A program made the translations under genes and the position numbers. A stretch of DNA of 43,461 nucleotides from a virus, in IMG/VR virus record IMGVR_UViG_3300006810_000094, positions 1 through 43,461 of that record; one strand, given 5' to 3'. The notes beneath the pieces are model-generated. The model saw only the letters and a program-made list of their open reading frames with translations, was not told where the DNA came from and made no database searches. The number at the start of each line of letters is the position of its first letter. Positions within the stretch are counted from its first letter, which is position 1. Shown piece by piece: positions 557 to 35,509 of the stretch.

Positions 557-773
557 CAAGAACTAACCTAATGTTTTTTCCGGGTCCTGTTTTGCTAGGC
601 AAGTCACCGTATTGGTCAATATACCAATGTATAACAGCACAATACCAATTCCAACTGTTATGATGTGCTTCTTTGTTAAACATCCAAATATTGTTATTTG
701 TTGCTTCCATTGTGCTTAATGCTCTTGCACTTTCTAATTGTAACTGTCTTACTGAAAAATTACTTAAATCCAA
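549..773 (-). CDS. Small protein of unknown function (74 aa)
   Basis: I do not recognise this protein. It is 74 residues long, rich in Asn, Trp and His (for example NNNIWMF and HHNSWNWYC), with no signal peptide or membrane segment visible. It sits between the methyltransferase gene, overlapping it by 14 nt, and the partial radical SAM gene, overlapping it by 8 nt. That arrangement supports it being a translated operon member rather than a chance frame. Its position directly before a radical SAM gene makes it a possible partner or substrate, but it lacks an obvious leader-core layout. It could equally be a small accessory protein. Confidence 0.6.
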   Translation of the reverse strand: MDLSNFSVRQLQLESARALSTMEATNNNIWMFNKEAHHNSWNWYCAVIHWYIDQYGDLPSKTGPGKNIRLVLDD

Positions 774-1674
774 TTCTCATAAACCTTGTGTATTTTGGTA
801 AATCTCTTTTACCATTATATAAAACTTTACGCATAGTAGTCATTGCTTCAAACTCTTGCAAACTATTTACACAGTTTACATGATCATCTATATCAAAGTA
901 ATCATTATTTTGTAAAACTACTAATTTTCCATCTGGAATTTTAGCATACCAATCTGAGAAATTTTGTATATGTTCGCAGCTGGTGTTTATTATTGTATCT
1001 GGTTTATCAAGAATAGGCTTACTCATTCTATTATTAGCATTGCTCCAACTTTCCCACCAATGCTCATCATATGTTATATGCATGATATCTTTGGTAACTG
1101 ATTTAAAACGCCAGTTGTCTACAAACCATGGCTTGTTAAATGTTTCAGCAATGTCAACACAAGTTGGATCAATATCAAAACTTCGTATCTTGTCTACTTT
1201 CATACCACTTTCAAAAAGCATTGTAGCAAGTGTAGCATACCATCCAGCACACAAATACACTGTTCCTAAATCTACTTTTTGTTTTTTAAGTTCTTCAACT
1301 AACCATAATTTACTTTGTAATTGTCCTCTACTAAAACAATCGTCCCAAATTTCAGTTTCATTTACAAAAAAGTTTTTAAATGCTGCAATAAATTGTGTAT
1401 CTACATATCTTTCAAGAATAGGCCACAGTTTCCACGTATTGTCTTCCAAGATAAGTTTTCTTAAATCATCATCATTGGCCAATCTAAAAATACTATGCAA
1501 ATTATTTTCTAAAACTGCTTTACGTAAATCATCTTTTGTGCCGTTAACATCATCCGGAAGCAATCTAAATATACTTGATAAATCTTTGTCTGTATATGCC
1601 CTACGTAAATCAGAAATTTTACTATTTGTTGGAAATAACAATTCAAATCTATCTAATAACTCAAATGTTTGCAT
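760..1674 (-). CDS. SAM-dependent methyltransferase-like protein with N-terminal repeats
   Basis: This 304-aa protein resembles class I methyltransferases. A glycine-containing motif I-like loop (AGWYATLA, about residues 143-150) is followed by an acidic strand SFDIDP (about 165-170). The C-terminal domain is clearly paralogous to the 201-aa protein at 18951: both share GQ-x-QSK-x-WL, DIDP-x-C, INTS-x-EHI and LVLQNN. The first 90 residues hold three short repeats (DLR...IFRL...DD, about residues 22-42, 49-69 and 70-90) that the paralogue lacks. I chose the ATG at 1674 because AGGAG stands 10 nt upstream and the overlap with the preceding gene is then 14 nt. An upstream in-frame ATG at 1707 would overlap more and has a poor ribosome site. 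The substrate is unknown; the neighbouring glycosyltransferase suggests a sugar. Confidence 0.72.
   Translation of the reverse strand: MQTFELLDRFELLFPTNSKISDLRRAYTDKDLSSIFRLLPDDVNGTKDDLRKAVLENNLHSIFRLANDDDLRKLILEDNTWKLWPILERYVDTQFIAAFKNFFVNETEIWDDCFSRGQLQSKLWLVEELKKQKVDLGTVYLCAGWYATLATMLFESGMKVDKIRSFDIDPTCVDIAETFNKPWFVDNWRFKSVTKDIMHITYDEHWWESWSNANNRMSKPILDKPDTIINTSCEHIQNFSDWYAKIPDGKLVVLQNNDYFDIDDHVNCVNSLQEFEAMTTMRKVLYNGKRDLPKYTRFMRIGFK
1405..1611 (-). repeat. Three short protein repeats within the methyltransferase gene
   Basis: This stretch encodes about three 21-27 residue units that each begin with DLR. The first two share the IFRL core and end in DD; the third is more divergent. They form an N-terminal module absent from the paralogous methyltransferase at 18951. 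Confidence 0.65.
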
Positions 1675-3886
1675 TTTCAAACTGCTCCTGTAACCAATCA
1701 AAGTCATTGATCTTTTTCAATGCTTGTAAATCTCCTTGGTGCAACATACCATATGCAGCGCCTGCTTTTGCTCCTGCAATAGCATACTTACCATATTGTC
1801 TTTGTTCTCCAACACTGCACCAAATTTTCAAACGCTCATTTGTTTCATCGTCTTTTTGTCTGTCAATTACTTTACTAGATAATTTACAACACTCTCTAAA
1901 TCCACTTTTAAAACTGTTGAATGCATCTGTATTAAATGCAGTGACATTACTAATATCATGCACTGCTTTAAACTTGCCACTAATACTAGTTGTCATATCA
2001 GGTTTGCTAATATCCATGTTTATGGTTAATTCTTTTGGAAAAAGTTTTACACCGCCATACCCGTATACCATGTCATTAATTGGATTTTGACTACGCCATA
2101 CATGAACTGTTTCTTTGTCCCAACGTGCAACTTGATAATCAAATTTAAAATCATCTACTATGATTGCATCACCGTCAACGATCCAAAACATATCAGTATC
2201 ACATAATTTTGCTGCTTCAATGTGTGCTTGGTGGATGCCTTTTACTCCATGCACACGTTTACAGTTTGGAAAACGTTCTAATATACGATTATAATTTTCA
2301 TCAGCATTAGGTTCTTGGTAACTAATAAAAACAATATCATAAGGCTTTGGTGTTGATATAACTATGTTTACTTCTTTTTTAGCAGCAATAAATTTGTATT
2401 CAAATTCTCTTTTGCTAAACTTTGCCTGTTTGCTACATAACACAATACCATCGTGATACTTGCCATTTAGATAAGCATGATTGATTGATCTATCGTAATG
2501 ACGATCATGACTAAAATAGGTATCGAATTGAAATCTACTAGTAGGATTTACATAATCAGGTATAATCCAAAACATTTCTGTTTTGCTGTTTTTCAATGCT
2601 TTCAAATAATCATCATAGGTTTTTGGTTTAAATATTTCATACTTACCTGGCCCGCTTGCTTCGATATCCCATTCCTTTGCATTGACTAAAAATCTATGTT
2701 CAACTTCACGCTGTGTTAGAGGACGATGCTTGCTGCAAAGGAACAATCCGTTATACAAATCTTCACCTTGCACCTTGTGTATAAATGCATGATTTTGTTT
2801 TCTATCATACTCGTTGTCGTGTGTGAAATAAACATCAGGAATAGTTGACGAAATATTAGCACTACCCATCCAAAACATTTCAGTTGAACTACTTTCTAAC
2901 GCCTCTAAGTATTCATCATAACTATCTATATCAAAATAATCATATGCTTTAGGACCACTACCTACTACATCCCATTCCTTTGCATTAACTAAAAATCTAT
3001 GTGTAATTTCTTTTTCATTAAGCGGAGCATGTTTGCTACATAAGAACAAGCCATTACGTTTATCTCCGCAATGCAAAAAATTGTGATTTGTTTTTCGATC
3101 ATATTCGTTATCATGCGGAAAATACAAATCAGGAATATCTGCTTTAATATTAGCACTACTCATCCAAAACATTTCAGTTTTGCTATTAGCAAATGCATGT
3201 AAATAATCTTCATAATTATCAATTTCAAAAACATCATAGTTTGTCCGTGTGCTACCTACAATGTCATGTTCAATCCTATTTACTAGAAATCTATGTTCTA
3301 TTTCACGCTTGCTTAATTTTGCACGTTTACTACACAAAAATAAACCATTATATGCTTCAAATTCAGTTAAAAATGCATGATTTTGTGCTCGTAGCTGCGA
3401 TTCATGATGTGTAATATAATAAGAATTAACTAACTCTTTGTTGTGTTGTATATTTTTTGTGCTGATCCAAAACAAATCAGTTGCAGTATGTTCAAGAGCT
3501 TGTAAATATTGATTATAAGTGTCTACGTAAAATAAATCAAACGGTTTAGGTTTACTTGCAACAACATCTACTTTTTTTTGCTGCACAAAAAATCTATGCT
3601 CTAATTCTCTAGAGCTAAAATTTGTATTTTTAGGAACTAAACATATTCCGTCATAAGTTTTATCATTTAAAAAAACATGTGCAATATCTTGGCTGTAATC
3701 ATCAGGCACATAATCAAAGTTAAAATCTTTTTCAACTTCTATGTCATCAAAAACAATCCAAACAAATTTAGTCAAACTGATTTGCTGTGCTTTTTGCACA
3801 GTGTCGGCTTTTTTTGCTACGAAAACTCTTTGCTTGAGTTGGTTATATTGTTCTTGGTTGTTTCCTACAAACACAATGTCAAACAT
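1661..3886 (-). CDS. Large repeat protein with C-terminal glycosyltransferase-like domain (741 aa)
   Basis: Residues 1-515 hold five tandem modules of about 100 residues. Each runs F-x-Y-x-x-YL-x-AL, then TEMFW, a HD-x-x-YDR-x-x-NHAF segment, NGLFLCSK, and finally RE-x-EHRFLVN. The first copy is the most divergent. Residues 516-741 match the separate 309-aa protein at 34580 in ISYQEPNA, RVHGV-x-G, a D-G-D metal-binding-type motif (D571, D573), YG-GG-x-K and FREC/FREG. This suggests a GT-A-fold nucleotide-sugar transferase; that fold is inferred from motifs. It is the first gene of an operon with the methyltransferase, the 74-aa protein and the radical SAM gene. A consensus sigma-70 promoter lies immediately upstream, with only 5 nt between TATAAT and the ATG, and no ribosome site is seen. 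The repeats could bind glycan or several acceptor sites. Confidence 0.78.
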   Translation of the reverse strand: MFDIVFVGNNQEQYNQLKQRVFVAKKADTVQKAQQISLTKFVWIVFDDIEVEKDFNFDYVPDDYSQDIAHVFLNDKTYDGICLVPKNTNFSSRELEHRFFVQQKKVDVVASKPKPFDLFYVDTYNQYLQALEHTATDLFWISTKNIQHNKELVNSYYITHHESQLRAQNHAFLTEFEAYNGLFLCSKRAKLSKREIEHRFLVNRIEHDIVGSTRTNYDVFEIDNYEDYLHAFANSKTEMFWMSSANIKADIPDLYFPHDNEYDRKTNHNFLHCGDKRNGLFLCSKHAPLNEKEITHRFLVNAKEWDVVGSGPKAYDYFDIDSYDEYLEALESSSTEMFWMGSANISSTIPDVYFTHDNEYDRKQNHAFIHKVQGEDLYNGLFLCSKHRPLTQREVEHRFLVNAKEWDIEASGPGKYEIFKPKTYDDYLKALKNSKTEMFWIIPDYVNPTSRFQFDTYFSHDRHYDRSINHAYLNGKYHDGIVLCSKQAKFSKREFEYKFIAAKKEVNIVISTPKPYDIVFISYQEPNADENYNRILERFPNCKRVHGVKGIHQAHIEAAKLCDTDMFWIVDGDAIIVDDFKFDYQVARWDKETVHVWRSQNPINDMVYGYGGVKLFPKELTINMDISKPDMTTSISGKFKAVHDISNVTAFNTDAFNSFKSGFRECCKLSSKVIDRQKDDETNERLKIWCSVGEQRQYGKYAIAGAKAGAAYGMLHQGDLQALKKINDFDWLQEQFENANI
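2342..3886 (-). repeat. Five tandem ~100-aa (about 300 bp) modules
   Basis: The modules show at the protein level as recurring TEMFW, CSK and HRFLVN blocks. The two middle units also remain close at the DNA level: near-identical stretches begin at about 2666 and 2969, some 303 bp apart. That implies fairly recent duplication or gene conversion inside one gene. Confidence 0.85.
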
Positions 3887-3959: not shown

Positions 3960-5816
3960 ATGGAATTATATGAAGGTGGCCAATATCGCATTGATATTGT
4001 AGGAGGCGATAGCTCGCTGATTGTTGATAGTAGTTCAGGAACAATTAGAGCAAATATTGAAAATCACAATGGCGAAATTGTTTTTGATTTAGATATTAGA
4101 AAATTTTATGGTTCATTTCAAGGAAATGTTTATGATATTGATAGTGATATAGCATACGATTCGTCTCTAAAAACATTTCATGGAACATTTGACGGAACAT
4201 TAACCAATAAAGGCTATGTAGTGATTAATCAGCATAGCTCTAACGTTCCATTAGCATCTGACATCTACGGTCCTGGCAATGTTCTTTCTTATGATAGATT
4301 ACAAAACAAATTTTATGGGAACTTTACAGGTAACATTGTTGATTCCAACGGTAATGTTTTGCTTTCAACAGATTCAGACTTTCCAAAAATAATTGCTGAT
4401 GTCCAAGGTAACGTTTTTGATAGCAGCGGTGTTGTAATATTAGATGTTGAAAACAATCGTTTGAATAACATTGCATACTCAGGAAGTATACAAAAGCAAA
4501 TCACTCCAGGAAACTATGATTACGCATACAATCAAGCTACAGATATTTTTAAAGGTAAGTTTTACGGAAATATAATTGACGAGTCTTCAAACATTCTAAT
4601 AGATGTTGACACTCATAAAATTAATATTCCTTTATATAGCGATATTAGAAGTTTAATAAACGGCCAAGTTATATATGACGCAAATACCGAAACCTTTGCA
4701 GGAAATGTATCAGGCGATATTGTAGATGACGGATACGATATAGTTTTGAACCCAAGTTTGAGAATGTTACAAGCTAGTGTATACGACGACCAAGGCAATA
4801 TATTGTTAGATTTTGAAACCGGCGAGTTCCACGGATCTATAGTATCTCAATCTTCAACTACACTTGAAGGTAATATTGTAGACGGTGGCGATGTGATTTT
4901 TGCATTGCAAACCAGAACCTTTTTAGAAGATATATCTGGTAATTTTGTTGGCAGCTTTAAGGGTAATCTTTTAAACGGTGATGACAACTATGTTTTTGAC
5001 TATTCAGCTAATCAGTTAAATGCAGAAATTGTTAGTGCAACAACATTAAATGGACACCATGTAGGAACGCATTCAGGTAATTATACACATTCAGACGGTG
5101 TTTTATTTGATGCAACATTGAAACACTGGAGCGGTGTTAGTCTAAACGGTAATATTTTTGCAGATAATGGGTTAGAAGTTTTTGATCCTTCAGCAAATAC
5201 ATTATCTACAACTACTGTATATGCAGATAATATCGTTGCTACAAGTTTAGATCTTGACACTATCGAAATAACATCGGAAGGTATAAGTGTAATTGTTGAA
5301 AGCGCATACAGTATCCCAGCATTAACCGGAAAATTTTACCGTGCTACACAGCCAAATATTCCCGACTGGTATCAACAAGGTTTTAGAGTAGAAGCTATTG
5401 GTGGTTCATGGTTAGACCCATTACCAATTACAGCAGGAACAAAACTACCTGCCCTTGCATTTAATGCAGCAATTGCAATCAATCCTGATCCAGAAGATTC
5501 TACTTACGAAAACGATACCGAAATGCAATTTGCCACTATTGCAGGCATTTATGCAAAAGTTCCTGATGATGCAACAATTAGCTTATCGGCAGGTGAGCAT
5601 AGAGGTTGCCCAGGCGAATTAATCTTTGCTACACAATCACCAACCTATGGTAGCAATTACATGATATTTGATTCTAATGGACAACTTGCGGTATCATTAA
5701 AAGATTTTAAAGTTCATGGAGAAACAGGAGTAATACCTAGTAATACAAGCACACCTGATAGTTGGTTACAAGCAACTGTTAACGGCGAAACAAAGTTTAT
5801 TCCACTTTATAGCTAA
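3960..5816 (+). CDS. Repetitive tail-fibre or other virion structural protein (618 aa)
   Basis: The protein is low in Cys and rich in Gly, Asn, Asp and Ser. Through roughly residues 1-430 it repeats a loose pattern of a short beta-like strand, F-x-G-x-x-x-GN, a D-containing turn, and V-x-x-D, as in GSFQGNVYD, GNFTGNIVD and GKFYGNIID. Such patterns fit an elongated beta-rich fibre. The C-terminus ends in PDSWLQATVNGETKFIPLY, a style of ending I associate with marine myovirus virion proteins. The ATG at 3960 has AGGAGA 6 nt upstream and a late-type promoter. The stop overlaps the next start (TAATG). An exact virion position cannot be given. Confidence 0.75.
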   Translation: MELYEGGQYRIDIVGGDSSLIVDSSSGTIRANIENHNGEIVFDLDIRKFYGSFQGNVYDIDSDIAYDSSLKTFHGTFDGTLTNKGYVVINQHSSNVPLASDIYGPGNVLSYDRLQNKFYGNFTGNIVDSNGNVLLSTDSDFPKIIADVQGNVFDSSGVVILDVENNRLNNIAYSGSIQKQITPGNYDYAYNQATDIFKGKFYGNIIDESSNILIDVDTHKINIPLYSDIRSLINGQVIYDANTETFAGNVSGDIVDDGYDIVLNPSLRMLQASVYDDQGNILLDFETGEFHGSIVSQSSTTLEGNIVDGGDVIFALQTRTFLEDISGNFVGSFKGNLLNGDDNYVFDYSANQLNAEIVSATTLNGHHVGTHSGNYTHSDGVLFDATLKHWSGVSLNGNIFADNGLEVFDPSANTLSTTTVYADNIVATSLDLDTIEITSEGISVIVESAYSIPALTGKFYRATQPNIPDWYQQGFRVEAIGGSWLDPLPITAGTKLPALAFNAAIAINPDPEDSTYENDTEMQFATIAGIYAKVPDDATISLSAGEHRGCPGELIFATQSPTYGSNYMIFDSNGQLAVSLKDFKVHGETGVIPSNTSTPDSWLQATVNGETKFIPLYS

Positions 5817-7957: not shown

Positions 7958-8653
7958 ATGGTAATCGACGGAGTTTACATCCCCCTTAAAAGAAATTGGA
8001 ATAGAATTGGCATCAGTCTAAGTGGCGGTGCTGACAGTGCTTTGCTGGCTTATTTTGTGTTGAGTAATACAAACGCTGATATCTACTTCACTACACAAGT
8101 GCGTATGTGGAAAACACGCCCTTGGCAACGTTGGGTTGCTAAAGATGTGGTTCATTGGTTCCGTGAAAAGTTTCATAATCGCATTGAACATATAGAGGGC
8201 TTTATACCACCAGAGATGGAAGAGCCAAACACAACCTATATCACAGACGAGTATGGACAAAGCAAGCCTGGTAACAGGATTATACTACGAGCTCACAATG
8301 AATACATTGCACACCTACACAAACTTGACGCATGGTATGCTGCTGTGACACTTAATCCAGATGAAAAGTTTGAAGGTGCTCCCGAGGACAGAGAATATGC
8401 TAGATTGCCTGCCGAAACAAAACATATGGGTGTAACAGTGTGTCATCCTTTTAGTATGGTTCGTAAAAATTGGATTATAAAACAGTATGTTGATTATGAA
8501 ATCGGCGAACTGTTGGAAATAACACGTAGTTGTGAAGGAGAATTTGAAGGGCTAGACTATACAACATACAAACCTTATCAACATGTGCCATACTGTAACG
8601 AATGTTTTTGGTGTAAAGAACGTGAATGGGGTATAGCAAATGCATCCAAGTAA
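7958..8653 (+). CDS. PP-loop ATPase, QueC/ExsB-like
   Basis: The N-terminus has the PP-loop SGGADS (residues 22-27) that binds ATP pyrophosphate in N-type ATP pyrophosphatases. Four C-terminal cysteines (C192, C213, C216, C219; SCEG and CNECFWC) match the single-Cys-plus-CxxCxxC zinc site of QueC, the 7-cyano-7-deazaguanine synthase. At 231 aa it is about QueC length. QueC makes a nitrile from a carboxylate at the expense of ATP. I see no QueD, QueE, FolE or DNA transglycosylase here, so the true substrate may differ; an amidation or nitrile-forming step on another acid is plausible. It leads an operon with four radical SAM genes, overlapping the first by 14 nt. Confidence 0.8.
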   Translation: MVIDGVYIPLKRNWNRIGISLSGGADSALLAYFVLSNTNADIYFTTQVRMWKTRPWQRWVAKDVVHWFREKFHNRIEHIEGFIPPEMEEPNTTYITDEYGQSKPGNRIILRAHNEYIAHLHKLDAWYAAVTLNPDEKFEGAPEDREYARLPAETKHMGVTVCHPFSMVRKNWIIKQYVDYEIGELLEITRSCEGEFEGLDYTTYKPYQHVPYCNECFWCKEREWGIANASK

Positions 8654-9899
8654 AACTTTTTGTTTACACCCTTTTACAGGTCTTGCTACTAGAGAAGACG
8701 GTGCAATTAAAGTATGCTGTCGTAGTCAACCAATTGGCTGGATACAAGATGAAACATTGGAAAGTGCATGGAATAACAAAAACATGCTTAGAGTGCGTGA
8801 GCAAGTATTAAATAATGAAATACCAGCCGAATGTGTTCCTTGTTTTGATTTAGAAGCACAAGGTGTAGAAAGTTTAAGGCAAAGACACATACGTGATAGT
8901 TTTCCTGATGCACGTATAAACCTGTATCCTGATGCATTAGACAAACTCAATGATGACTATACCATGCCGTTTGAGTTTCCTACTATTGAGATAAAAATTA
9001 ACAACTTGTGCAATCTCAAGTGTAGAATGTGCAATCCATTAGACAGCACACAGTGGAAAGACTGGGAACAAGTAGAACAGTTTTATGAGGAAGAAGGCAA
9101 CTACCTAGTGGATGCTGTGCGCAAACTAGGATTAACACGAGCACCATACATTGGCTTGTTTGAAGACAGTGTAGAGTTTTGGAGCAATCTTGAAAAATTG
9201 CTTCCATATTTCCGCAGAATTGAGTTTGCTGGTGGCGAACCACTGATGGATCCTAGTCACTATCGCATTTTAGATATGTTAGCACCATACGGCGAAAACA
9301 TTGAAATAAAGTATGCTACAAACGGCACAGTGACTGGTATAAAGGGCGGAAGGACCATACACGACTATTGGCCTAAGTTTAAAAACGTGGTCGTAAATGT
9401 AAGCATAGACGGGCTACACGATGTGTATGAATACATTAGAGGCAATGGTAAGTTTGAAGAAGTGGAAGAAAATGTCAAAATCTTTAAGAGCTTTCCCAAT
9501 GTTAAATATGTTGTAGGTGCTTGCACTGTCCAAGCAGGTAATGTTTTACAATTGCCACAGATTATCGATTATTTTTTAAACACAATGGGCATTGTGTTTT
9601 ACTCGCACAGAGTAAACTATCCAAATGTTTTAAGTGCTCAGTGTTTACCAAACACATACAAGCAAAAAGTTGTAAAAGAATTAATTAAAATTAAAGAAGA
9701 TGTAAAAAATTATCCTATTATGAGTATAAACGATAAGTTACTACCTATTACATTACGACAAATTGATGATAACATTAACTTTCTATTAGCCAAGGACTTG
9801 TCTCACAAATGGCCACAAACTGTAGAGTTCAATCGTAGATTAGACAAAAGCCGTAATCAAACAAATTTTGAAGACTTAATTAATGATTACGCAAATTAA
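8640..9899 (+). CDS. Radical SAM protein with N-terminal twitch/SPASM-like Cys domain
   Basis: This is a 419-aa enzyme. The N-terminal module holds C8, C26, C27, C65 and C68 (FCLHPF, VCC, CVPC), the pattern of an auxiliary iron-sulfur cluster domain placed before the core. The radical SAM motif CNLKCRMC gives C124, C128 and C131, with AGGEP at about 197-201 and a SIDG strand further on. The same architecture recurs in the proteins at 17575, 29555, 30831, 32048 and 33195. Marine T4-like phages are known to carry such twitch-type radical SAM genes, but their reactions are unassigned. It overlaps both neighbours by 14-17 nt within the operon led by the PP-loop ATPase. Confidence 0.88.
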   Translation: MHPSKTFCLHPFTGLATREDGAIKVCCRSQPIGWIQDETLESAWNNKNMLRVREQVLNNEIPAECVPCFDLEAQGVESLRQRHIRDSFPDARINLYPDALDKLNDDYTMPFEFPTIEIKINNLCNLKCRMCNPLDSTQWKDWEQVEQFYEEEGNYLVDAVRKLGLTRAPYIGLFEDSVEFWSNLEKLLPYFRRIEFAGGEPLMDPSHYRILDMLAPYGENIEIKYATNGTVTGIKGGRTIHDYWPKFKNVVVNVSIDGLHDVYEYIRGNGKFEEVEENVKIFKSFPNVKYVVGACTVQAGNVLQLPQIIDYFLNTMGIVFYSHRVNYPNVLSAQCLPNTYKQKVVKELIKIKEDVKNYPIMSINDKLLPITLRQIDDNINFLLAKDLSHKWPQTVEFNRRLDKSRNQTNFEDLINDYAN

Positions 9900-10827
9900 A
9901 AATAATATCAATGACGATACACTAATGATAGATATGAGTATTGGTAATATTTGTAATTATCAATGCTGGTATTGTTTTGAAGGAGCACACGAAGGTAATT
10001 ATAAATGGTTTGATTACGATCTATTAATTAAGAATACAGACAGACTGCTCAAATGGTATATGAGTCAAGGTAAAACTAAATTCGATATTCATTTTGTAGG
10101 CGGTGAACCTACACACTGGCCAAAGTTACTAGATTATATAAAATATTTAAAAGATAATTACACTTGTTTGATAAGCATGACTAGCAATGGTAGTAAAAAA
10201 TTAGACTTATGGAATAATTTTGCCAAATATTTTGACAAAATACATCTAAGTTATCATCATCAACAAGCCAATCTACAGTCATTTATTAACGTTGCTGATT
10301 TACTATATAAAAATAAAGTTATTGTAAGTGCTAGTGTAATGATGGATCCGTTAGCTTGGGACAAATGTATATCAGCAGTTAAACAAATGAAAAAAAGCAA
10401 ATATCGCTGGACTATTAGATATACAGAAATTCTAAGTCATGAAAAATATACAGAAAAACAAAAAATTATTTTAAAAAAACATAAAGCTCGTAGTGCTAAT
10501 CCTTTTTGGTTTTTTATTAATAACAAATACAAATCAACTAAAATATATGTAGACGAAAAACGTGTGCCAGACAATTATATTTTAGTAAATAAACTTAATA
10601 CTTTCAAAGGTTGGAAATGTAATTTAGGATTAGACTGGATACATATTAGCCCAAATGGTGAATTAAGTGGAACATGTGGACAACATTTATTTGGCAAAGA
10701 TAAAAATTATAATTTTAGACAAAAAACATTTTATAAAAAATTTAATCCCACATTACAACCTGTTATTTGCACTCAATGCGAGTGTAAATGTATGCCGGAG
10801 ACTAATATTAGTAAATGTTTAGTGTAG
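9883..10827 (+). CDS. Radical SAM protein, GW-x-C subfamily (314 aa)
   Basis: CNYQCWYC gives C24, C28 and C31, and GGEP lies at 73-76. The C-terminal third has FKGWKC, a predicted strand and turn (HISPNGELSGTCG) and the Cys-rich CTQCECKC, which could hold an auxiliary cluster as in SPASM/twitch domains. The closest relative in the window appears to be the protein at 16670, with which it shares F-x-GA-x-EG after the cluster motif and W-x-CNLG-x-D in the tail. The gene overlaps the previous one by 17 nt and the next by 13 nt. The substrate is unknown. Confidence 0.87.
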   Translation: MITQIKNNINDDTLMIDMSIGNICNYQCWYCFEGAHEGNYKWFDYDLLIKNTDRLLKWYMSQGKTKFDIHFVGGEPTHWPKLLDYIKYLKDNYTCLISMTSNGSKKLDLWNNFAKYFDKIHLSYHHQQANLQSFINVADLLYKNKVIVSASVMMDPLAWDKCISAVKQMKKSKYRWTIRYTEILSHEKYTEKQKIILKKHKARSANPFWFFINNKYKSTKIYVDEKRVPDNYILVNKLNTFKGWKCNLGLDWIHISPNGELSGTCGQHLFGKDKNYNFRQKTFYKKFNPTLQPVICTQCECKCMPETNISKCLV

Positions 10828-11711
10828 AAAACAGATGGCCGCATTACAGAGATAGTGTAAAAGTAGAATGGAATTTAGGAAAACGTTGCAACCTAGATTG
10901 TTCCTACTGTCCTCCTGAAATACATGACCAGCACAGTCCACATACAAACATAGGCAAACTTTTTGAAACTGTAGATAGATTATCCGAAATTGAAAATGTT
11001 AGGATAAGTTTTACAGGAGGCGAACCTTGTGTGCATCCACAATTTGAACAATTGATAGAATATGCTAGACCAAAGATCAAATGGCTTAGTGTAACTACTA
11101 ACGGAACAAGGAAGTCAGACTTCTATTTAAATTTACGTGTAAATTATATCGTTTTTAGTTTACATCTTGAAGATGTTGATTGGAGTGTAAGACTTGATAA
11201 CATAATTTATCTTGCCGGAACATTAGGAGGCACGAAATTTCCAAAAGATTATCATGTAATGTTAATGGCTCATCAAGATTATATGCCTGAAGTAAAATTA
11301 GCCACAAGATGGTTAACTGAACACAATATTCCATTTAGTATTAGACGTATACGTTGGACTGAAAAACATGACTGGTTTGACGATATGCGTTATGATTTAA
11401 AAGATTTAGAATGGATTAAAAGCACAGAAACAACTGCGAAACCAAATACACTTGTTGATAGCAAAGAACTAATGCATACAAATGATATATTAAAAAATAA
11501 ATTAAATATGTTTAAAGGATGGCAATGCAGAGCAGGAATAGAAAGTTTAATGATCAACTGGGACGGTGAAGTGCATAGAGCAACCTGTAGAGTTGGTGGC
11601 AGTCTGGGAAATATATACGAAGGAACATTTGTTAGGCCAGATCAGCATGTTATTTGCACCAGAAATTGGTGCACTTGTGCAGCAGATGTAAATATTACAA
11701 AATGGAAGTAG
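10815..11711 (+). CDS. Radical SAM protein, GW-x-C subfamily (298 aa)
   Basis: CNLDCSYC gives C25, C29 and C32, and TGGEP follows at about 67-71. The C-terminal part repeats the subfamily signature: FKGWQC, a MINWDGEVHRATC strand-turn, and a CTRNWCTC tail ending in NITKW. It is slightly shorter than its neighbours. GGAG occurs about 14 nt before the ATG, too far to be a strong ribosome site, so coupling with the upstream gene probably drives translation. It is the third radical SAM gene in a row. Confidence 0.87.
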   Translation: MFSVENRWPHYRDSVKVEWNLGKRCNLDCSYCPPEIHDQHSPHTNIGKLFETVDRLSEIENVRISFTGGEPCVHPQFEQLIEYARPKIKWLSVTTNGTRKSDFYLNLRVNYIVFSLHLEDVDWSVRLDNIIYLAGTLGGTKFPKDYHVMLMAHQDYMPEVKLATRWLTEHNIPFSIRRIRWTEKHDWFDDMRYDLKDLEWIKSTETTAKPNTLVDSKELMHTNDILKNKLNMFKGWQCRAGIESLMINWDGEVHRATCRVGGSLGNIYEGTFVRPDQHVICTRNWCTCAADVNITKWK

Positions 11712-12763
11712 ATGCAATCAAACTAACAAACCCCGAACCAATGATGGTTACTTGGGACATCGGCAGAAGGTGTAATTTTGATTGCACTTATTGTGAAAGC
11801 ACACGACACAATACATACAGTCCTCCTACTAGTTGGCAAAATTTATGTTCTACATTAGATTTTATAAAACAATACACAAGATTATACAATCAACCCAATG
11901 CTAACATTGGCTTTACTGGAGGTGAGCCAACTGTAAATCCACGCTTCTGGGACTTTGTAGAAAAAATAAACAACGAAACCGAGTTTCAAGTTGGTATGAC
12001 CAGTAACGGAACATGGCCAGAAAAGCATATTGACTTTATAAAAAATAACTTTGTGGGTATAACACTGAGTTACCATGCCGAAGCTAATCTTTTTAGCAAA
12101 GAACGCACTATTAATAATGCTATACTTGTAAAACAAGCAGGAATGTGGCTTACTGTGAATGTAATGATGCACACCGACCACTGGGATGAGTGTGTAGAAG
12201 TTCACGAAAAACTTAAATCACACGGAATAGACAGCAAGCCTACTATGATCGGCGATGGTAATCTAGGTGTCACAGATTGGTTTGCGGACACAGAAGGTGT
12301 TCAGCGTAGGACAAGCCATCCATATAACAAACAACAACAAGAATGGTATTTACAAGAAAAAGGATTGCCAACAGATATAGTGGAAAAAATCACCGAAGGC
12401 TATGAATTGCCTAGAGGATGCTGTGGTGCTAGAAGTATAGAAGGTAGTTGTAATGGCTGTTGGCAGAATGTAGAAGCAGTGAACACCAACTTCAAAGGCT
12501 GGTATTGTGCTGTTAATCGTTATTTTCTACACATTGATCAACACACAGAAAAAGTATATCACCATCAAACCTGTCAAACCAGTTTCAGTGGCAGGAAAGG
12601 TCCAATAGGCAGGCTAGGTAATCCTGATGGTATACTAAACTATGCTTATGAAAACAGAAATAGGATCATACGCTGCCCACACAATAGATGTGGTTGCGGT
12701 ATGTGTGTGCCCAAAGCTAAGTCACTTGATGTTTTTCAACAAATTGTTGGCTCGGGTTTGTAG
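11702..12763 (+). CDS. Radical SAM protein, GW-x-C subfamily with Cys-rich insert (353 aa)
   Basis: CNFDCTYC gives C24, C28 and C31 counted from the ATG at 11702, and TGGEP follows. I prefer this start to the in-frame ATG at 11654: it gives a 10-nt overlap with the previous gene, typical of this operon, and avoids 16 residues unlike the related N-termini. The C-terminal half carries an extra CCGA...CNGC block before FKGWYC, then CQTSFSGRKGPIG-x-L-x-NPD and CGCGMCVPKAK. The same additional block occurs only in the protein at 15628, so the two are close paralogues. The 3' end overlaps the facing gene by 47 bp. Confidence 0.87.
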   Translation: MEVDAIKLTNPEPMMVTWDIGRRCNFDCTYCESTRHNTYSPPTSWQNLCSTLDFIKQYTRLYNQPNANIGFTGGEPTVNPRFWDFVEKINNETEFQVGMTSNGTWPEKHIDFIKNNFVGITLSYHAEANLFSKERTINNAILVKQAGMWLTVNVMMHTDHWDECVEVHEKLKSHGIDSKPTMIGDGNLGVTDWFADTEGVQRRTSHPYNKQQQEWYLQEKGLPTDIVEKITEGYELPRGCCGARSIEGSCNGCWQNVEAVNTNFKGWYCAVNRYFLHIDQHTEKVYHHQTCQTSFSGRKGPIGRLGNPDGILNYAYENRNRIIRCPHNRCGCGMCVPKAKSLDVFQQIVGSGL

Positions 12764-13763
12764 TTAGATTGCCACAGGTTCTAGCACAGGTATACAGTTT
12801 ATGTGTGGTCCAATAGCGTTTCCACACTGATGTATATCCGGGCTTGCTGATAACTTGTTTGATGCTTTGTTTGTGTAAATTTGTGTTGCCCATGTCTGCT
12901 ATCAAAAACTCATATTGACTTTTGATTTTTTGTTTTGCTTCATACAGCGGATCTTGTCGTATATGATAGTTGTAGGGTATACTGGCTAAAAAGCAGCAAG
13001 GCATTAAATCTAAGTGTGCGTCTATGTAAACTTCACGTTGCTTTTTTGCCCAACAGTCTATTACACTTGCTGATACTAGTTCGGGTATTTGTTTAGGATC
13101 AATAGGTTCTGTAGGTGTGTGTGGTTCCAGTGTGTCTATAACATGTCCTAGATTGTTTTTTACATCAAAGCTGTTTTCAAAAGCAAATCTACTGCTGTCT
13201 TTCACAGTGAAATATTTGAATCCATAATATTTTGCAACTTCCTGTGCTGCAATTACTTGATCAGCATTGTGCTTGAATCTTATCATGCTCCATTCTGCGG
13301 TGCCGCCAGCATTGATAAATGCTCTAGCATTGTTTATAATTTTGTTGAAGTCGGTGTTGATTCTATATTTGCTGTGGGTATCAGCTAATCCGTCTATGGC
13401 AAAAACAACTTTGTGTTCTGCGGGCAAATGTTTAGGCAATTCTTTCCACCAACGTTCATTTCGCAAACTACCATTGGTGTGTATATCAACATATATGCCG
13501 TCATCTTTTATCCAGTCTAACATTTTAACCAAATGAAAGTTTAGCAACGGATCACCAAAGTTTCCACAAAATGTGATTTTTTCAATTTGGCTCTTGACTT
13601 CTTGCTCAAAAACCTGTATAAAGTCATTAACAGTCCAGTCTGCTTCACGTAGCAAAGGATTTTCAATGCCACCATGATAATTCCTGCTACACATAGGACA
13701 TTGTGCTTGGCAACGATTTGATATTTCTATGTGGACGCTTTTGAGATCTGTAAAACTAAACAC
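12717..13763 (-). CDS. Radical SAM protein of the SPASM type (348 aa)
   Basis: CQAQCPMC gives C18, C22 and C25. The usual GGEP is replaced by GNFGDPL, a variant seen in some radical SAM/SPASM enzymes. An IDG strand follows, and the C-terminal half has CWAKKQ and LMPCCF, then a CARTC segment, consistent with auxiliary cluster ligands. It differs in type from the other radical SAM genes here. The start codon is GTG at 13763, directly after a perfect late box TATAAATA with a 4-nt gap and no ribosome site. It forms a single-gene minus block overlapping the facing radical SAM gene by 47 bp. Confidence 0.85.
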   Translation of the reverse strand: MFSFTDLKSVHIEISNRCQAQCPMCSRNYHGGIENPLLREADWTVNDFIQVFEQEVKSQIEKITFCGNFGDPLLNFHLVKMLDWIKDDGIYVDIHTNGSLRNERWWKELPKHLPAEHKVVFAIDGLADTHSKYRINTDFNKIINNARAFINAGGTAEWSMIRFKHNADQVIAAQEVAKYYGFKYFTVKDSSRFAFENSFDVKNNLGHVIDTLEPHTPTEPIDPKQIPELVSASVIDCWAKKQREVYIDAHLDLMPCCFLASIPYNYHIRQDPLYEAKQKIKSQYEFLIADMGNTNLHKQSIKQVISKPGYTSVWKRYWTTHKLYTCARTCGNLTTNPSQQFVEKHQVT

Positions 13764-13767
13764 TTTT

Positions 13768-13775
13768 TATTTATA
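13768..13775 (-). promoter_or_regulatory. Perfect T4-late promoter box TATAAATA
   Basis: On the minus strand TATAAATA ends 4 nt before the GTG start at 13763. It is a full match to the T4 late consensus and predicts an mRNA with essentially no leader. Confidence 0.65.
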
Positions 13776-13789
13776 TGCGCACTTAATGA

Positions 13790-13797
13790 ACTAAATA
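13790..13797 (+). promoter_or_regulatory. Late-type box ACTAAATA abutting the start codon at 13802
   Basis: The TAAATA core (13792-13797) ends 4 nt before the ATG, the same spacing as on the opposite strand for the gene at 13763. No -35 element is seen. Confidence 0.48.
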
Positions 13798-13801
13798 CCA
13801 T

Positions 13802-14551
13802 ATGGATCATATAGAATTTTATCAGCAGCACAAAGATGCCGCAACAGAATTACATCCACTTCCAGATTATGATTTAGAAGATCAAGCACGTTGGATTATT
13901 TCAGGACATGGCTATCAATATCTAGAACTAGACTGGATGTTTCCTACTACTCAATGGCAGAAAGAAAGCAATTTAGCTGAACCTCATTATGTAGCACATA
14001 GAGATGAAGCCACAGGAGAAGGCACACACAACGGATGGAGTAGTTGTGTGCTACACGGTATAGGCATAGACAAAACCAATGTGTATCAAACATATGGATA
14101 TGAAACAGAGCCTAAATATTCATGGACTGAACTAGGTGTTAAATGTAAAAGCATACGTATGTTTTTTGAGAGTGTGTTTCCAGCAGAACGCTTTGCTAGA
14201 ATACGCTTTATGCGATTAGCACCCGGTGGTTGGATATCACCGCACAATGACTTTTCACCCATGGTAACTTCAGAAAATCTTTTTGATTTTCCTATTCCTG
14301 TTAACATTGCTGTGGATCATCCTGACGATTGTCACATGACCTTAAAGGATGCTGGTGTAGTTCCTTTTGAGTCTGGCAAGATGTGTTTGGTAAACATATT
14401 CCGTGATCACAGTGTAGTAAACTTTAGTGACCGTCCAAGAATACACATTATAGCACACTGCTATTTGGGCAATCGTAAGAAAGAATACTGTCAACTAATT
14501 GTAGATAGTTATCGTAAACAACATGAACGTATATCCAAGCAAATTCACTGA
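13802..14551 (+). CDS. 2OG-Fe(II) oxygenase of the aspartyl/asparaginyl hydroxylase type (249 aa)
   Basis: The motif LAPGGWISPHND supplies H148 and D150. H203 (RDHSVVN) completes the iron triad and R211 or R213 (SDRPRIH) would bind 2-oxoglutarate. This order and the PGG...H-x-D context closely match aspartyl/asparaginyl beta-hydroxylase-like proteins; it is the clearest of the three oxygenases here. The hydroxylated substrate is unknown. It overlaps the next gene by 29 nt. The start follows a late-type box by 4 nt with no ribosome site. Confidence 0.78.
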   Translation: MDHIEFYQQHKDAATELHPLPDYDLEDQARWIISGHGYQYLELDWMFPTTQWQKESNLAEPHYVAHRDEATGEGTHNGWSSCVLHGIGIDKTNVYQTYGYETEPKYSWTELGVKCKSIRMFFESVFPAERFARIRFMRLAPGGWISPHNDFSPMVTSENLFDFPIPVNIAVDHPDDCHMTLKDAGVVPFESGKMCLVNIFRDHSVVNFSDRPRIHIIAHCYLGNRKKEYCQLIVDSYRKQHERISKQIH

Positions 14552-15680
14552 TCGTAAAACCTGTGTATGTATTGTCAACGATGTTGCTGAATACACAGTG
14601 GACCGAGAACTGGTTGTAAACCGTGCTGACTACACAATCAGCAACTTAACTGGCCAGGGCTATACTGTTTTTGAACATACCAATGTAGACAAACTGCTAC
14701 AACGTGCCTGTGGCAAATACGATCATGCTGTTGTTATCAGTGCTGGCACAGAATTTATCAACGGCACACAGTTTTTTGACACCCATCCTGAAGAATATGA
14801 TTTGCTGTGTCACATACTGGACGGTGGAGATGCTTACTATGGCATACACCCACAGTGTTTCAGCATCAACTTACAAACATATGTTGACCTAGGCTGTCCT
14901 AAGTTTGGAAAATCACAGTTCTTTACTGATTACCAAGCACTTGAACCAATGCGTAGTCATGATAGCATACATGACGACTACCTACCAACATGGGTAGGCT
15001 CTGGAAAAATCATTGTAAACTACAAACACAAACAAGCAGGTTGGAATCTAATCAAAACACTGCTGGACAACCATCGCACCATAGAAGCGTATAGCAAAGA
15101 TCAACGTGAGGGCAAGTTTTATCAATACAGGTCAGGAGAAACTTCTAGCTATATCTATCAAAAATACAACTACTGTTTGACCACACATGTTCACACACAA
15201 GCAACAGGCAAGCCCAACTATCCAAGAGTGTATGACACACCTGTTATGCGTCTTGTAGCACCTGCTAATCCTGCTGCTGCGGAACAACGTGGACCTGCTG
15301 CTGAACACATTTACTATGATTACAATTTGGCAGCATTAGAAGCAGCAGGCGGCGGCATACACATTGATCCTGTGAACACACCTGATGACTTTGTAGCACA
15401 CATACCCAAAGACAATCCTCAAGGCACAGTGATTGACATGAGCAATGTTTTTTGCTATGAAGGCACTGCTGCTATGTATAGTTTACGCTATAGAGTAGAG
15501 CAAGAAAATAAATTGATACTTGCTTTACAAAAAGAACTAGGTGATGCTACTGTGATATTTGATCAACGGGCAGCAGAGGGTATACAACCTTGGCAACCAG
15601 AAACAGGGCTTGTGAAAGATCTTACCCTTACTGATTTTGACGGTTTAGATCTGCCATCATGGCATCAAACTGTGATTTAG
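14523..15680 (+). CDS. Unknown protein (385 aa), downstream partner of the 2OG oxygenase
   Basis: I do not recognise the family. The protein appears soluble, with an N-terminal alpha/beta-looking half (CVCIVNDV, HAVVISAGTEF) and a C-terminal half holding GTVIDMSNVFCYEG and a helix-like YRVEQENKLILALQKEL. An Ala-rich stretch (ANPAAAEQRGPAAE) near residues 248-261 may be a linker. The hydrophobic strand followed by ISAGTEFI recalls a nucleotide-sugar or glycosyltransferase-type fold, but no D-x-D motif can be placed. Its start overlaps the oxygenase gene by 29 nt, and its end overlaps the facing radical SAM gene by 53 bp. Confidence 0.68.
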   Translation: MNVYPSKFTDRKTCVCIVNDVAEYTVDRELVVNRADYTISNLTGQGYTVFEHTNVDKLLQRACGKYDHAVVISAGTEFINGTQFFDTHPEEYDLLCHILDGGDAYYGIHPQCFSINLQTYVDLGCPKFGKSQFFTDYQALEPMRSHDSIHDDYLPTWVGSGKIIVNYKHKQAGWNLIKTLLDNHRTIEAYSKDQREGKFYQYRSGETSSYIYQKYNYCLTTHVHTQATGKPNYPRVYDTPVMRLVAPANPAAAEQRGPAAEHIYYDYNLAALEAAGGGIHIDPVNTPDDFVAHIPKDNPQGTVIDMSNVFCYEGTAAMYSLRYRVEQENKLILALQKELGDATVIFDQRAAEGIQPWQPETGLVKDLTLTDFDGLDLPSWHQTVI

Positions 15681-16677
15681 TTCGTGCTTTAGGCGCACAT
15701 ATACCACACCAACAACTTGACTTTTTACAAACTATGCCGCGATTGTGTGCTGATGTGAGCATAGCATCTGGGTTGTTCAAGTTGCCAATAGGTCCTACAC
15801 TGCTTGAATAATTCATCCTACAGTCTTTGTTGGTAAACACTTCGCCTGTGTTTTGTCTAATATACAAAAAGTGATCTGCTACACTACAATGCCAATTTTT
15901 AAATCTGTTGTCTACACGTTTGGTATCACAGCCACTGGCGCACAGTGTTTTGCCACCGCAGCAGGCTCTTCCTTCAGCACTAAGGTTAAGTCCTTTTACC
16001 AGCGCATGAGAAATTTTGTCTTTGATCGAAATCTTACGTCCCAGTAAATATTCTGCTTGTTCAGCAGAGTAGTTCCAACGCATGTCTAACCAATGATGAT
16101 CAATCTGTCTTGGCAGATGTGGTATGTGATAGGCCTTACACCATTCAATCATTTGAACACAGTCCGCCCAGTGTCTTGGATCCATCATGATGTTTACACA
16201 AAAGTTTTTGTCTTTGCCTTTACAATACATGATGTTTTGTCTAACCATGTCTTTTTGTTTTTGGGTAGCACTGGCATGATAACTTATTGTGTAGTAGTCC
16301 ACAAACTCAGATACTCTGGTCCACTGTTTTACGCCAACTACAGCATTGGTTATAAATGCTATGCCCATATACCAATCGTATTTTTGTCTTTTGAAGTTTA
16401 TCCATTTCAGTATATCAACTATGTGTGGATGGAATAAACTTTCACCGCCTTGTATGTTTAAGTTGGCTTGCCTGGCTGACTCAGGACGCTCGGACATTTT
16501 GAGATCAACATAGCGAAATATAAAATCCACAGTCTCATTACACTCTCCTAAACTAGGATGTTCTGTGTTGTTGTCATGGCCATCGCCACAATACGCACAA
16601 TCAAGATTACATTTCAGTGTGCTTTCCCAAGCAACTTGGAATATTCTGTCGTCTTTTGGTATTAGTGTATCAAACAT
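15628..16677 (-). CDS. Radical SAM protein, GW-x-C subfamily with Cys-rich insert (349 aa)
   Basis: CNLDCAYC gives C23, C27 and C30; GGES replaces GGEP. The C-terminal part has CCGGKTLCASGC, then FKNWHC in place of FKGWYC, CRMNYSSSVGPIG-x-L-x-NPD and CWCGICAPKAR. This is the same extended Cys array as in the protein at 11702 on the other strand, so the two are paralogues separated by about 4 kb. It is the last gene of the six-gene minus operon that begins with the epimerase, overlapping the previous gene by 8 nt. Confidence 0.86.
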   Translation of the reverse strand: MFDTLIPKDDRIFQVAWESTLKCNLDCAYCGDGHDNNTEHPSLGECNETVDFIFRYVDLKMSERPESARQANLNIQGGESLFHPHIVDILKWINFKRQKYDWYMGIAFITNAVVGVKQWTRVSEFVDYYTISYHASATQKQKDMVRQNIMYCKGKDKNFCVNIMMDPRHWADCVQMIEWCKAYHIPHLPRQIDHHWLDMRWNYSAEQAEYLLGRKISIKDKISHALVKGLNLSAEGRACCGGKTLCASGCDTKRVDNRFKNWHCSVADHFLYIRQNTGEVFTNKDCRMNYSSSVGPIGNLNNPDAMLTSAHNRGIVCKKSSCWCGICAPKARTKSQFDAMMADLNRQNQ

Positions 16678-33208: not shown

Positions 33209-34580
33209 TGGCTTCCTTACATAATGCAAAGAAGTCGCTCATTTCAGGAAATGTTTTTTCAAAATCTGTATCACGTCTACGATCATGTTCTTTGAAGAAG
33301 TTCCAAAAGTCTTTGCGACCTTCTCTAATTTTGTTCACATCGTATCTAGTTGTTTTCATGTAATCAACAACACGTCTAAATTTTTCATATTCCATTTCAC
33401 TAAAATGTTCTTTACTACCTTCTTTTACATTGTCTTTGATAAATTGTAAATGGCTTTCCATATAAGGTATATAAGTTTCTTTAGGCAAAATGTTTATATC
33501 ATATTGCAGTGGCTCTTTTAAATAAGGTGTATCAAAATGTATACGTTGCCAACGTCCGCTGTTTACATCATTATACATACGCCTTTGTTCTAATATTTTT
33601 TCAAGCAATGTTTGGAATGTTGTGACACTGAACAAACTAAATGTAATCATGTATGTCACAGGTGCAGTTGTATTACGCATAAAGTAATCAAAATTGCGCT
33701 CAAACACTTTTAAGTCCAATCCATCACGTATATACTCTGCACGTTCGTTCCATGTATCTAAACTTGTAAACAACTTAAAACTTTTTACTTTATTTTGTGT
33801 AAGCAAACTGTTTACACTATCTGTAAATTTTTCCAGTTGTTTTTCTTTGCCGCCAAAATTACTGTTTACATTTAATTCAAGATGTGGCTTTGGATCTTTT
33901 TCAAGTTCATCAAACATCCTATACATGCTTTTTTGCATAGTAGGTTCGCCGCCGGTGATACGTAAAATGTTCAATGTTTTGCTAACTTCAGGCCACCATT
34001 TCCACCAAGCACGTAAATAAGGGTTTGAATCTTCTTCATAGATACGGAACCAGTCAATATCACATCTATGATTCTTACTTTGTGAATACGGCCCGTGTTG
34101 TCTTATTTCATTGTAGTATCTGCTGCTTGCTTTTGGATGACAATATCCGCAACGGAAATTACATTCATTACCAAATGAAATTTCAATATACTCAGGACTT
34201 ACATTAAAGTCCCACTTGTTAAACTTTACCTCTTTTAATCTATCTTCGTTATAAATGCTGCCACTGCGAATATGCCTATCACTGATATAATCATCTCCCA
34301 TGTTTTCAACATTCCAACAATACTGACAACCAGCACATTGTTTGCCTTCTAACATTTCCTTACGTTCTTGTTTTTTATGTTGTGTATTATGCAATGCACT
34401 AGGATTTGTTAACAACTCGTCAATATCAATTTTGTGAGGTGCTGGATGATAACAACTATGTGTTTCACCTGTTTGCAAGTAGATAGTTGTATGATACCAT
34501 TTTGCAAAACAAAAAGTCGGCGAAAAATGCCGCTTTGTGATATCATTGATATATTTTACTCTGTCTGTTTGATTTGACAT
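33195..34580 (-). CDS. Radical SAM protein with N-terminal Cys domain (461 aa)
   Basis: C24 (TFCFAKW), C43 (SCYHPAPHK), C82, C85 and C88 (CAGCQYC) make up the N-terminal array, with the usual CC reduced to a single Cys. CNFRCGYC gives C140, C144 and C147; TGGEPTMQ follows. A long insertion with WRA/WWKWW lies between the cluster motif and GGEP. It is the longest and most divergent of the twitch-type proteins. Its start overlaps the upstream stop by 1 nt (TAATG). Confidence 0.86.
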   Translation of the reverse strand: MSNQTDRVKYINDITKRHFSPTFCFAKWYHTTIYLQTGETHSCYHPAPHKIDIDELLTNPSALHNTQHKKQERKEMLEGKQCAGCQYCWNVENMGDDYISDRHIRSGSIYNEDRLKEVKFNKWDFNVSPEYIEISFGNECNFRCGYCHPKASSRYYNEIRQHGPYSQSKNHRCDIDWFRIYEEDSNPYLRAWWKWWPEVSKTLNILRITGGEPTMQKSMYRMFDELEKDPKPHLELNVNSNFGGKEKQLEKFTDSVNSLLTQNKVKSFKLFTSLDTWNERAEYIRDGLDLKVFERNFDYFMRNTTAPVTYMITFSLFSVTTFQTLLEKILEQRRMYNDVNSGRWQRIHFDTPYLKEPLQYDINILPKETYIPYMESHLQFIKDNVKEGSKEHFSEMEYEKFRRVVDYMKTTRYDVNKIREGRKDFWNFFKEHDRRRDTDFEKTFPEMSDFFALCKEANETF

Positions 34581-35509
34581 TATCGTCCTTTACGTGGTAT
34601 CCTTGAAGGATTCATATACACAGTTTTAAAAAATAAACTTTGATTTCCATTTAGTGGTTCAGCAGCAATAGGCAAATCAAGTTCTTCAATTAGCTTGTAG
34701 CCAAGATCAATTGTATTTTCTTCCATTTGATCTTCATCAATATTTTTGCTATCCCAATATTCATTTAACCATTTAAAATCACGCACATTTACAAAGTCCC
34801 AGTCGGTACACATTGTTTTATATAACCCTTCTCTAGCACCGTATATAGCCCAACGTCCGTTTTCTACATCCGCACCAACCATTAGCCAAATATACAAACG
34901 ATGCAAGTTCTTCCAATGATTTTTTTGAAACGCTTCTACAGTAGGTTTCATGCCTCTGTCCAATGCCATTTTAACACCTTCACGGAAACCAGCACGCCAT
35001 GCTTGATGTGGTGTAGCATTATTCATGATTTCACTATGACATTGATTTATTTGTATGTATTCTAGGTCCCAACAAAAATCTACCTGGGCGTGTGGGTTGT
35101 TAGGATCTGCATTTTCATGCGTTTTCATGTTGAGAACTTTTTGTTTAGGCCAACATTTAATTCCGCCGTTGCCATACATAAGTCCGTTAATTGTGTTTTT
35201 AGCACTCCAACTTACAACACAATTTTCAAATGCAACTTCTCTGTTCCAGTGTGCATCTTCGTGATTATCTAAGTCAAACTCTCTACCAAGGAAGTCTGCG
35301 TTTACAATGTTATCACCGTCAATAGTAATAAATCTATCAGTTTCGCTTAGTTTAGCACATGCTTTGTGTGCTGCATCACTGCCTTCTACTCCATGCACAC
35401 GTTTTGCCCACGGCACTTTACTACACAAGTCTGCATAGTTTTTTTCTGCATTTGGCTCATCATAACTTAGATATATGATATCATAATCTAAAATTCTAAA
35501 TTTACTCAT
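34580..35509 (-). CDS. Glycosyltransferase-like protein (309 aa)
   Basis: LSYDEPNAEKNY, RVHGVEG, an ITIDGDNIV block (D64, D66), GLMYGNGGIKCWP and WRAGFREG-x-K match residues 516-741 of the 741-aa protein at 1661. D-G-D is a plausible metal and nucleotide-sugar site of a GT-A fold; that is inference. Here the domain stands alone, without the five repeats, and has an added C-terminal tail of about 40 residues. It overlaps both neighbours by 1 and 4 nt. Confidence 0.68.
   Translation of the reverse strand: MSKFRILDYDIIYLSYDEPNAEKNYADLCSKVPWAKRVHGVEGSDAAHKACAKLSETDRFITIDGDNIVNADFLGREFDLDNHEDAHWNREVAFENCVVSWSAKNTINGLMYGNGGIKCWPKQKVLNMKTHENADPNNPHAQVDFCWDLEYIQINQCHSEIMNNATPHQAWRAGFREGVKMALDRGMKPTVEAFQKNHWKNLHRLYIWLMVGADVENGRWAIYGAREGLYKTMCTDWDFVNVRDFKWLNEYWDSKNIDEDQMEENTIDLGYKLIEELDLPIAAEPLNGNQSLFFKTVYMNPSRIPRKGR

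Follow-up and report, generated by a model that had tools for sequence, protein, structure and literature searches.

Arrays of apparently degenerate glycosyltransferase domains, variable in length, in a family of phage proteins

What might a phage enzyme gain from five tandem modules of about 100 residues placed ahead of its glycosyltransferase-like domain? A gene of this kind lies in a viral DNA stretch of 43,461 nucleotides (IMG/VR record IMGVR_UViG_3300006810_000094), hereinafter the window. A reading made from the sequence alone had proposed that the modules either bind carbohydrate or are degenerate versions of the catalytic domain itself. Alignment of the parts of the 741-residue ORF confirmed the architecture noted there, with five modules of 98-114 residues preceding a catalytic-type glycosyltransferase (GT) domain, which we term the CTD (Table 1); the whole protein is referred to below as the array-GT.

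Table 1. Features of the array-GT gene and associated genes in the window
Feature	Positions	Strand	Basis
Whole array-GT gene, 741 aa, ATG start; five GT-A-like modules, then CTD	1661..3886	(-)	ORF
Module 1, aa 1-114, first-type	3545..3886	(-)	Alignment of protein parts
Module 2, aa 115-215	3242..3544	(-)	Alignment of protein parts
Module 3, aa 216-313	2948..3241	(-)	Alignment of protein parts, DNA repeat
Module 4, aa 314-414	2645..2947	(-)	AlphaFold2 prediction of the module alone, Foldseek GT-A
Module 5, aa 415-515	2342..2644	(-)	Alignment of protein parts
CTD, aa 516-741, 226 aa, predicted GT-A (GT2-like) plus C-terminal helical subdomain	1664..2341	(-)	DxD, weak GT2 Pfam matches, Foldseek
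D571-G572-D573, DxD metal/nucleotide-sugar motif	2168..2176	(-)	CTD alignment
Solo GT, stand-alone paralog with its own DGD (ITIDGDNIV)	34580..35509	(-)	Homology to CTD
Methyltransferase-like gene, downstream, overlapping the array-GT gene	760..1707	(-)	By reading only
Fiber-like gene with G-N-V/D repeats, divergent from the array-GT gene	3960..5816	(+)	Recurrent neighbor

Direct DNA repeats with a spacing of 294-303 nt run through the array gene. As had been remarked earlier, two copies are still alike at the DNA level: modules 3 and 4 have 155 nt in common at 77%, and are overall 73% identical in DNA and 67% in protein sequence. The full motif set (TEMFW, HDxxYDR, CSK and HRFLVN) had been described as repeated five times; the five modules are real, but only modules 3 and 4 carry the complete set. 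Module 2 has TDLFW and HHESQLR, module 5 has YKF where other copies have HRF, and module 1 is a distinct first type with FVWIVFDD that lacks both HDxxYDR and CSK. The further claim that the D-G-D-containing domain also occurs alone in the window holds as well: the solo GT is 38% identical to the CTD (E 3e-32) and is a real homolog from a distant sub-family, which the module profiles failed to detect (0.4 and 3.1 bits).

To guard against circularity in comparing modules with the CTD we kept separate profiles for internal modules (n=260 distinct), first modules (n=43) and CTDs (n=42). The internal-module HMM recovered CTDs with up to 34 bits, in a register placing the module TEMFW over the CTD TDMFW, which is the resemblance that the sequence-only reading had pointed out; conversely, the CTD HMM recovered modules with up to 41 bits. 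Profile-profile comparisons with hhalign matched the internal and first modules to the CTD with probabilities of 96.5% and 98.3% respectively. With the module-only HMM, 41 of the 42 distinct CTDs outscored the best of 2100 shuffled CTD sequences (their maximum was 9.5 bits, whereas the real CTDs had a median of 26; the remaining CTD scored 8.8), and no other protein of the window exceeded 3.8 bits. A relationship of the modules to the solo GT instead of the CTD was considered and ruled out (0.4 bits).

Structure prediction points the same way. AlphaFold2 modeled module 4 alone, from an input of 105 aligned modules, with a pLDDT of 89.4, and the full-length chain with a pLDDT of 90.9 and a pTM of 0.62. 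The full-length model has a strand/helix order common to every module and the CTD, from which the internal modules lack beta2-alpha2; module 1 retains beta1-alpha1-beta2-alpha2-beta3, with FDD replacing DxD, and the C-terminal helices are found in the CTD alone. In a Foldseek search of the PDB with the single module all of ranks 1-16 were GT-A enzymes, led by the WrtF fucosyltransferase (a modest E of 0.015, probability 0.98, TM about 0.5) and then beta-1,4-galactosyltransferase (b4GalT), while matches beyond these were mostly GT-A-like nucleotidyltransferases. The full chain likewise recovered GT-A enzymes at the top (probability 0.8-1.0), including K4CP, ppGalNAc-T, WrtF and SunS. The predicted module fold is thus that of the catalytic domain and not an unrelated, non-glycan repeat. 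Accordingly, we regard it as practically certain that the modules are degenerate, miniaturized copies of the CTD. Carbohydrate binding by them is possible and would be compatible with such an origin; in Pfam no known CBM family matches the modules.

Do both kinds of domain retain the capacity for catalysis? A DxD motif (DGD or DAD) is present after the third core strand in 42 of 42 distinct CTDs, and in a wider set it was found in all 265 CTD copies (156 DGD, 108 DAD and 1 DTD). Because the CTD scores against Pfam PF00535 and PF13641 (14.5 and 14.2 bits) fall under the curated cut-offs (23.3 and 27), we label it GT-A, GT2-like rather than a Pfam GT2 member. From its motif and modeled fold the CTD is predicted to be a GT-A, GT2-like domain that catalyzes glycosyl transfer, and the array-GT is probably a glycosyltransferase, most likely a cytoplasmic one. 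The DxD is found in none of the 303 distinct modules (260 internal and 43 first): its first position holds Asp in 0 of 260 internal modules (Ser in 44%, Pro in 36%, Thr in 12%) and in 0 of 43 first modules, where the second Asp is kept in 91%. This loss is what might be expected of decaying duplicates with no function, a reading that we find hardly credible: pairwise dN/dS values are mostly 0.05-0.15 for the modules (0.02-0.11 for CTDs; for one very close pair, the window type and L003, synonymous changes are too scarce for an estimate), motifs are conserved in the 260 distinct internal modules, and one architecture recurs across many lineages. The modules evolve under purifying selection, and twelve columns of their alignment are invariant or at least 90% conserved.

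Copy number had been expected to vary, and a survey of IMG/VR bore this out. A scan for relatives gave 252 confirmed stretches and a CTD-profile scan at least 585 confirmed matches; in the distinct complete proteins among the matches listed, with arrays on contigs cut at an end left out, the number of modules ranges from 0 (37 proteins with a CTD-type domain) to 16. Several relatives differ in length by whole units, namely by one module of 294 nt (with 94% identity elsewhere), by one module of 309 or 321 nt, and, between the window type and L073, by 900 nt or three modules. Thus, copy number varies in part by gain and loss of whole units. Two otherwise identical genes from related samples, L214:7001-11872 (14 modules) and L219:7001-11632 (13 modules), differ by 240 nt, which is less than one unit and could reflect either a module of hybrid origin or the assembly; for this reason the 294- and 900-nt pairs were used in their place. 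Elsewhere, DNA identity among modules 3-10 of L060 is 83-95%, and L049 displays a three-module pattern repeating along the array, a signature of units recombining with one another.

In a quick CTD tree (SH-aLRT support only, midpoint root) the deepest branches are CTDs without modules from bacterial bins, those of Bdellovibrionota among them. One viral group that also lacks modules lies within the module-bearing CTDs, and sister CTDs may have very different arrays (10, 3 and 2 modules in one trio). This topology fits a course in which the GT came first and the modules later, though the root is a midpoint one and the solo GTs have long branches. Since five of the nine bacterial-bin matches belong to Bdellovibrionota, the form without modules may occur in phages or prophages of predatory bacteria. 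In one such locus (L087), on a 140-kb Bdellovibrionales contig, a fusion of solo GT and CTD-GT has tail-fiber-like and trmD-like genes alongside.

The tolerance of 0-16 copies, together with their exchange and homogenization, would suit a role as ligand-free structural spacers that oligomerize or extend the enzyme. We hold this to be unlikely, given the purifying selection and the near-invariant residues specific to the modules, and also because arrays are retained after loss of the CTD, beside another GT. Such separation takes several forms. L200 and L150 encode a four-module ORF overlapping a second ORF that consists of one module and the CTD, while L185-L187, L191, L192 and L210 have an array ORF of about 845 codons with no CTD. 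L187 displays the order S74-type tail fiber, Anp1-like GT (with a DSD motif), array, and then convergent NUDIX and T4 gp15-like genes, the array lying directly downstream of the Anp1-like GT on the same strand. Two genomes with CTD-less arrays (236 and 257 kb) encode a complete array-GT with a CTD elsewhere; in L275 (a 330-kb record) the last module is fused directly to the helical tail of a CTD whose DxD core is absent, and in L277 an Anp1-like GT is followed, with overlap, by one first-type module alone. The persistence of CTD-less arrays beside another GT suggests that the array has a role independent of its own catalytic core.

Two types of gene neighborhood recur in the family. In the first (type A) a divergent fiber-like gene, the array/CTD gene and a methyltransferase-like gene are set in a radical-SAM-rich region, an arrangement also seen with module-free CTDs. 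The second (type B) combines an S74 fiber, a small gene, an Anp1-like GT, the array and NUDIX/gp15 genes; in type B arrays the N-terminal ~130 residues (e.g. L050:4198-6735 and L275:1573-3174) form a very divergent module-like domain, detected at 15-37 bits in some members. The arrays sit at tail-fiber/neck or radical-SAM loci of T4-like phages. Their adjacency to fibers and the existence of CTD-less forms might indicate that the modules are a virion-borne adhesin, i.e. a glycan-binding repeat, with the CTD being secondary. We consider this quite improbable, as most arrays have a CTD with an intact DxD, the neighborhood is rich in enzymes and the models display no fiber-type fold.

The methyltransferase-like gene of the window has no Pfam, PHROG or NCBIfam match and is a recurrent neighbor of CTDs with or without modules. 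Fusions of the solo GT with the CTD occur in L083, L087, L139 and L153, and in others the two are neighbors, so they probably work in concert. The window further encodes a nucleotide-sugar epimerase, a DegT-type aminotransferase, radical-SAM/SPASM proteins and virion or fiber proteins. Its segments 8640-18954 and 28594-34580 contain some thirteen genes that read as radical-SAM-like (two of them checked with Pfam), together with SGNH-like, amidinotransferase-like and Asp/Asn-hydroxylase genes, and constitute a dense modification island. In an Oligoflexia bin (L089:6747-8708) a radical-SAM-like protein is fused to a CTD-type GT, suggesting that the two kinds of enzymes belong to one pathway.

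This context matches the 'host recognition cluster' of T4-like pelagimyophages (PMC7029224), for which the authors there favor modification of the host O-chain. By analogy with this published reading of the cluster GTs, the array-GT could alter a host surface glycan (the LPS O-chain) and thereby exclude competing phages, with the modules binding the growing polysaccharide; the epimerase and aminotransferase genes of the window agree with such a role. We treat it as a possible though doubtful alternative: no membrane or lipid-carrier element was evident on inspection of the array-GT sequence or model, and arrays, including those with no CTD, are associated with fiber genes, in one locus on one strand after the S74 fiber and the Anp1-like GT.

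Taking these lines of evidence together, we somewhat favor reading the array-GT as a GT-A glycosyltransferase in which a row of dead copies holds the acceptor or a partner and serves both the CTD on its own chain and, in trans, another GT. The array would be a pseudo-enzyme scaffold, its modules no longer binding nucleotide sugar and instead binding or aligning a repetitive acceptor, or a partner GT, such that one catalytic domain (the CTD in cis or the Anp1-like GT in trans) could act repeatedly along the acceptor. Since the array adjoins fiber and neck genes and lies among nucleotide-sugar, radical-SAM and GT genes, the acceptor might more likely be a phage adhesin/tail fiber or a surface glycan than DNA. 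Copy number would then tune reach or avidity. Against this explanation, host surface-sugar genes could share the locus with no contact between array and fibers. A ruler, with module number tracking fiber length, is not soundly supported: the correlation (rho 0.53, p 0.03, 17 related points) is weak and confounded, and in one fiber subtype length is nearly constant while modules run from 1 to 4. Only tentatively do we extend the proposal to a new pseudo-enzyme repeat protein, in which a recombining, variable-length array of dead copies would grip a repetitive acceptor and serve a GT in cis or an Anp1-like GT in trans, its length tuning glycosylation of the phage's own host-recognition fibers.

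Searches against Pfam, PHROG, NCBIfam and PDB sequences returned nothing convincing for either the array or the CTD, and tblastn against 50,697 phage records found no relative. Scattered low-E matches of single repetitive members to unrelated families (e.g. Shr-like, TORC) were judged to be repeat artefacts. The best viral structural match of the module, the predicted, uncharacterized phage protein A0A6J5LK21 of BFVD (804 aa), may belong to the array family. A name and a hypothesis are hereby provided for a large family that the searched libraries do not describe. Moreover, one gene family offers a natural series, from the plain enzyme with no modules, through enzymes with up to 16 inactive copies of themselves, to arrays minus the enzyme, in which one can test directly how pseudo-enzymes evolve and how a degenerate catalytic fold might be put to use as a binding repeat.

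Among known systems, the chondroitin polymerase K4CP, which is the best full-model Foldseek match, and other enzymes with two GT-A domains resemble the array-GT in having tandem GT-A domains on one chain. In K4CP both GT domains are active and both bind donors, whereas the modules of the array-GT are all devoid of the DxD. The ppGalNAc-Ts, recovered through their GT-A part, similarly join a catalytic GT-A domain to a non-catalytic, acceptor-binding one, but their lectin domain adopts a beta-trefoil, which has no relation to the fold of the catalytic domain. The GTs of the host recognition cluster also lie in an island with fiber genes, other GTs and radical-SAM genes beside neck genes; in the relevant passages of its description GT8 and LPS-type GTs are described, and a repeat-bearing GT is not mentioned (PMC7029224). 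GT-fold accessory domains that lack catalysis are known singly, while a recombining array of up to 16 is absent from the libraries, records and literature searched; a variable-length array of inactive GT copies seems not to have been described before. The accessory (AC) domain of human LH3/PLOD3 has a non-catalytic GT fold, and the authors of that work suggest that it recognizes the substrate or a partner (PMC6082870; PDB 6fxk). LH3, which is among the full-length Foldseek matches, differs from the array-GT in being a eukaryotic collagen enzyme with a single accessory domain, with neither a tandem array nor copy-number variation, and no sequence similarity was found between the two. Like the array-GT, it carries a non-catalytic GT-fold domain and a catalytic GT on one chain, and the modules fit this type of accessory domain in having a GT-A fold with no donor motif alongside a catalytic domain. 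They would work like the LH3 accessory domain while not being members of it by sequence, and by this analogy it appears to be their best precedent.
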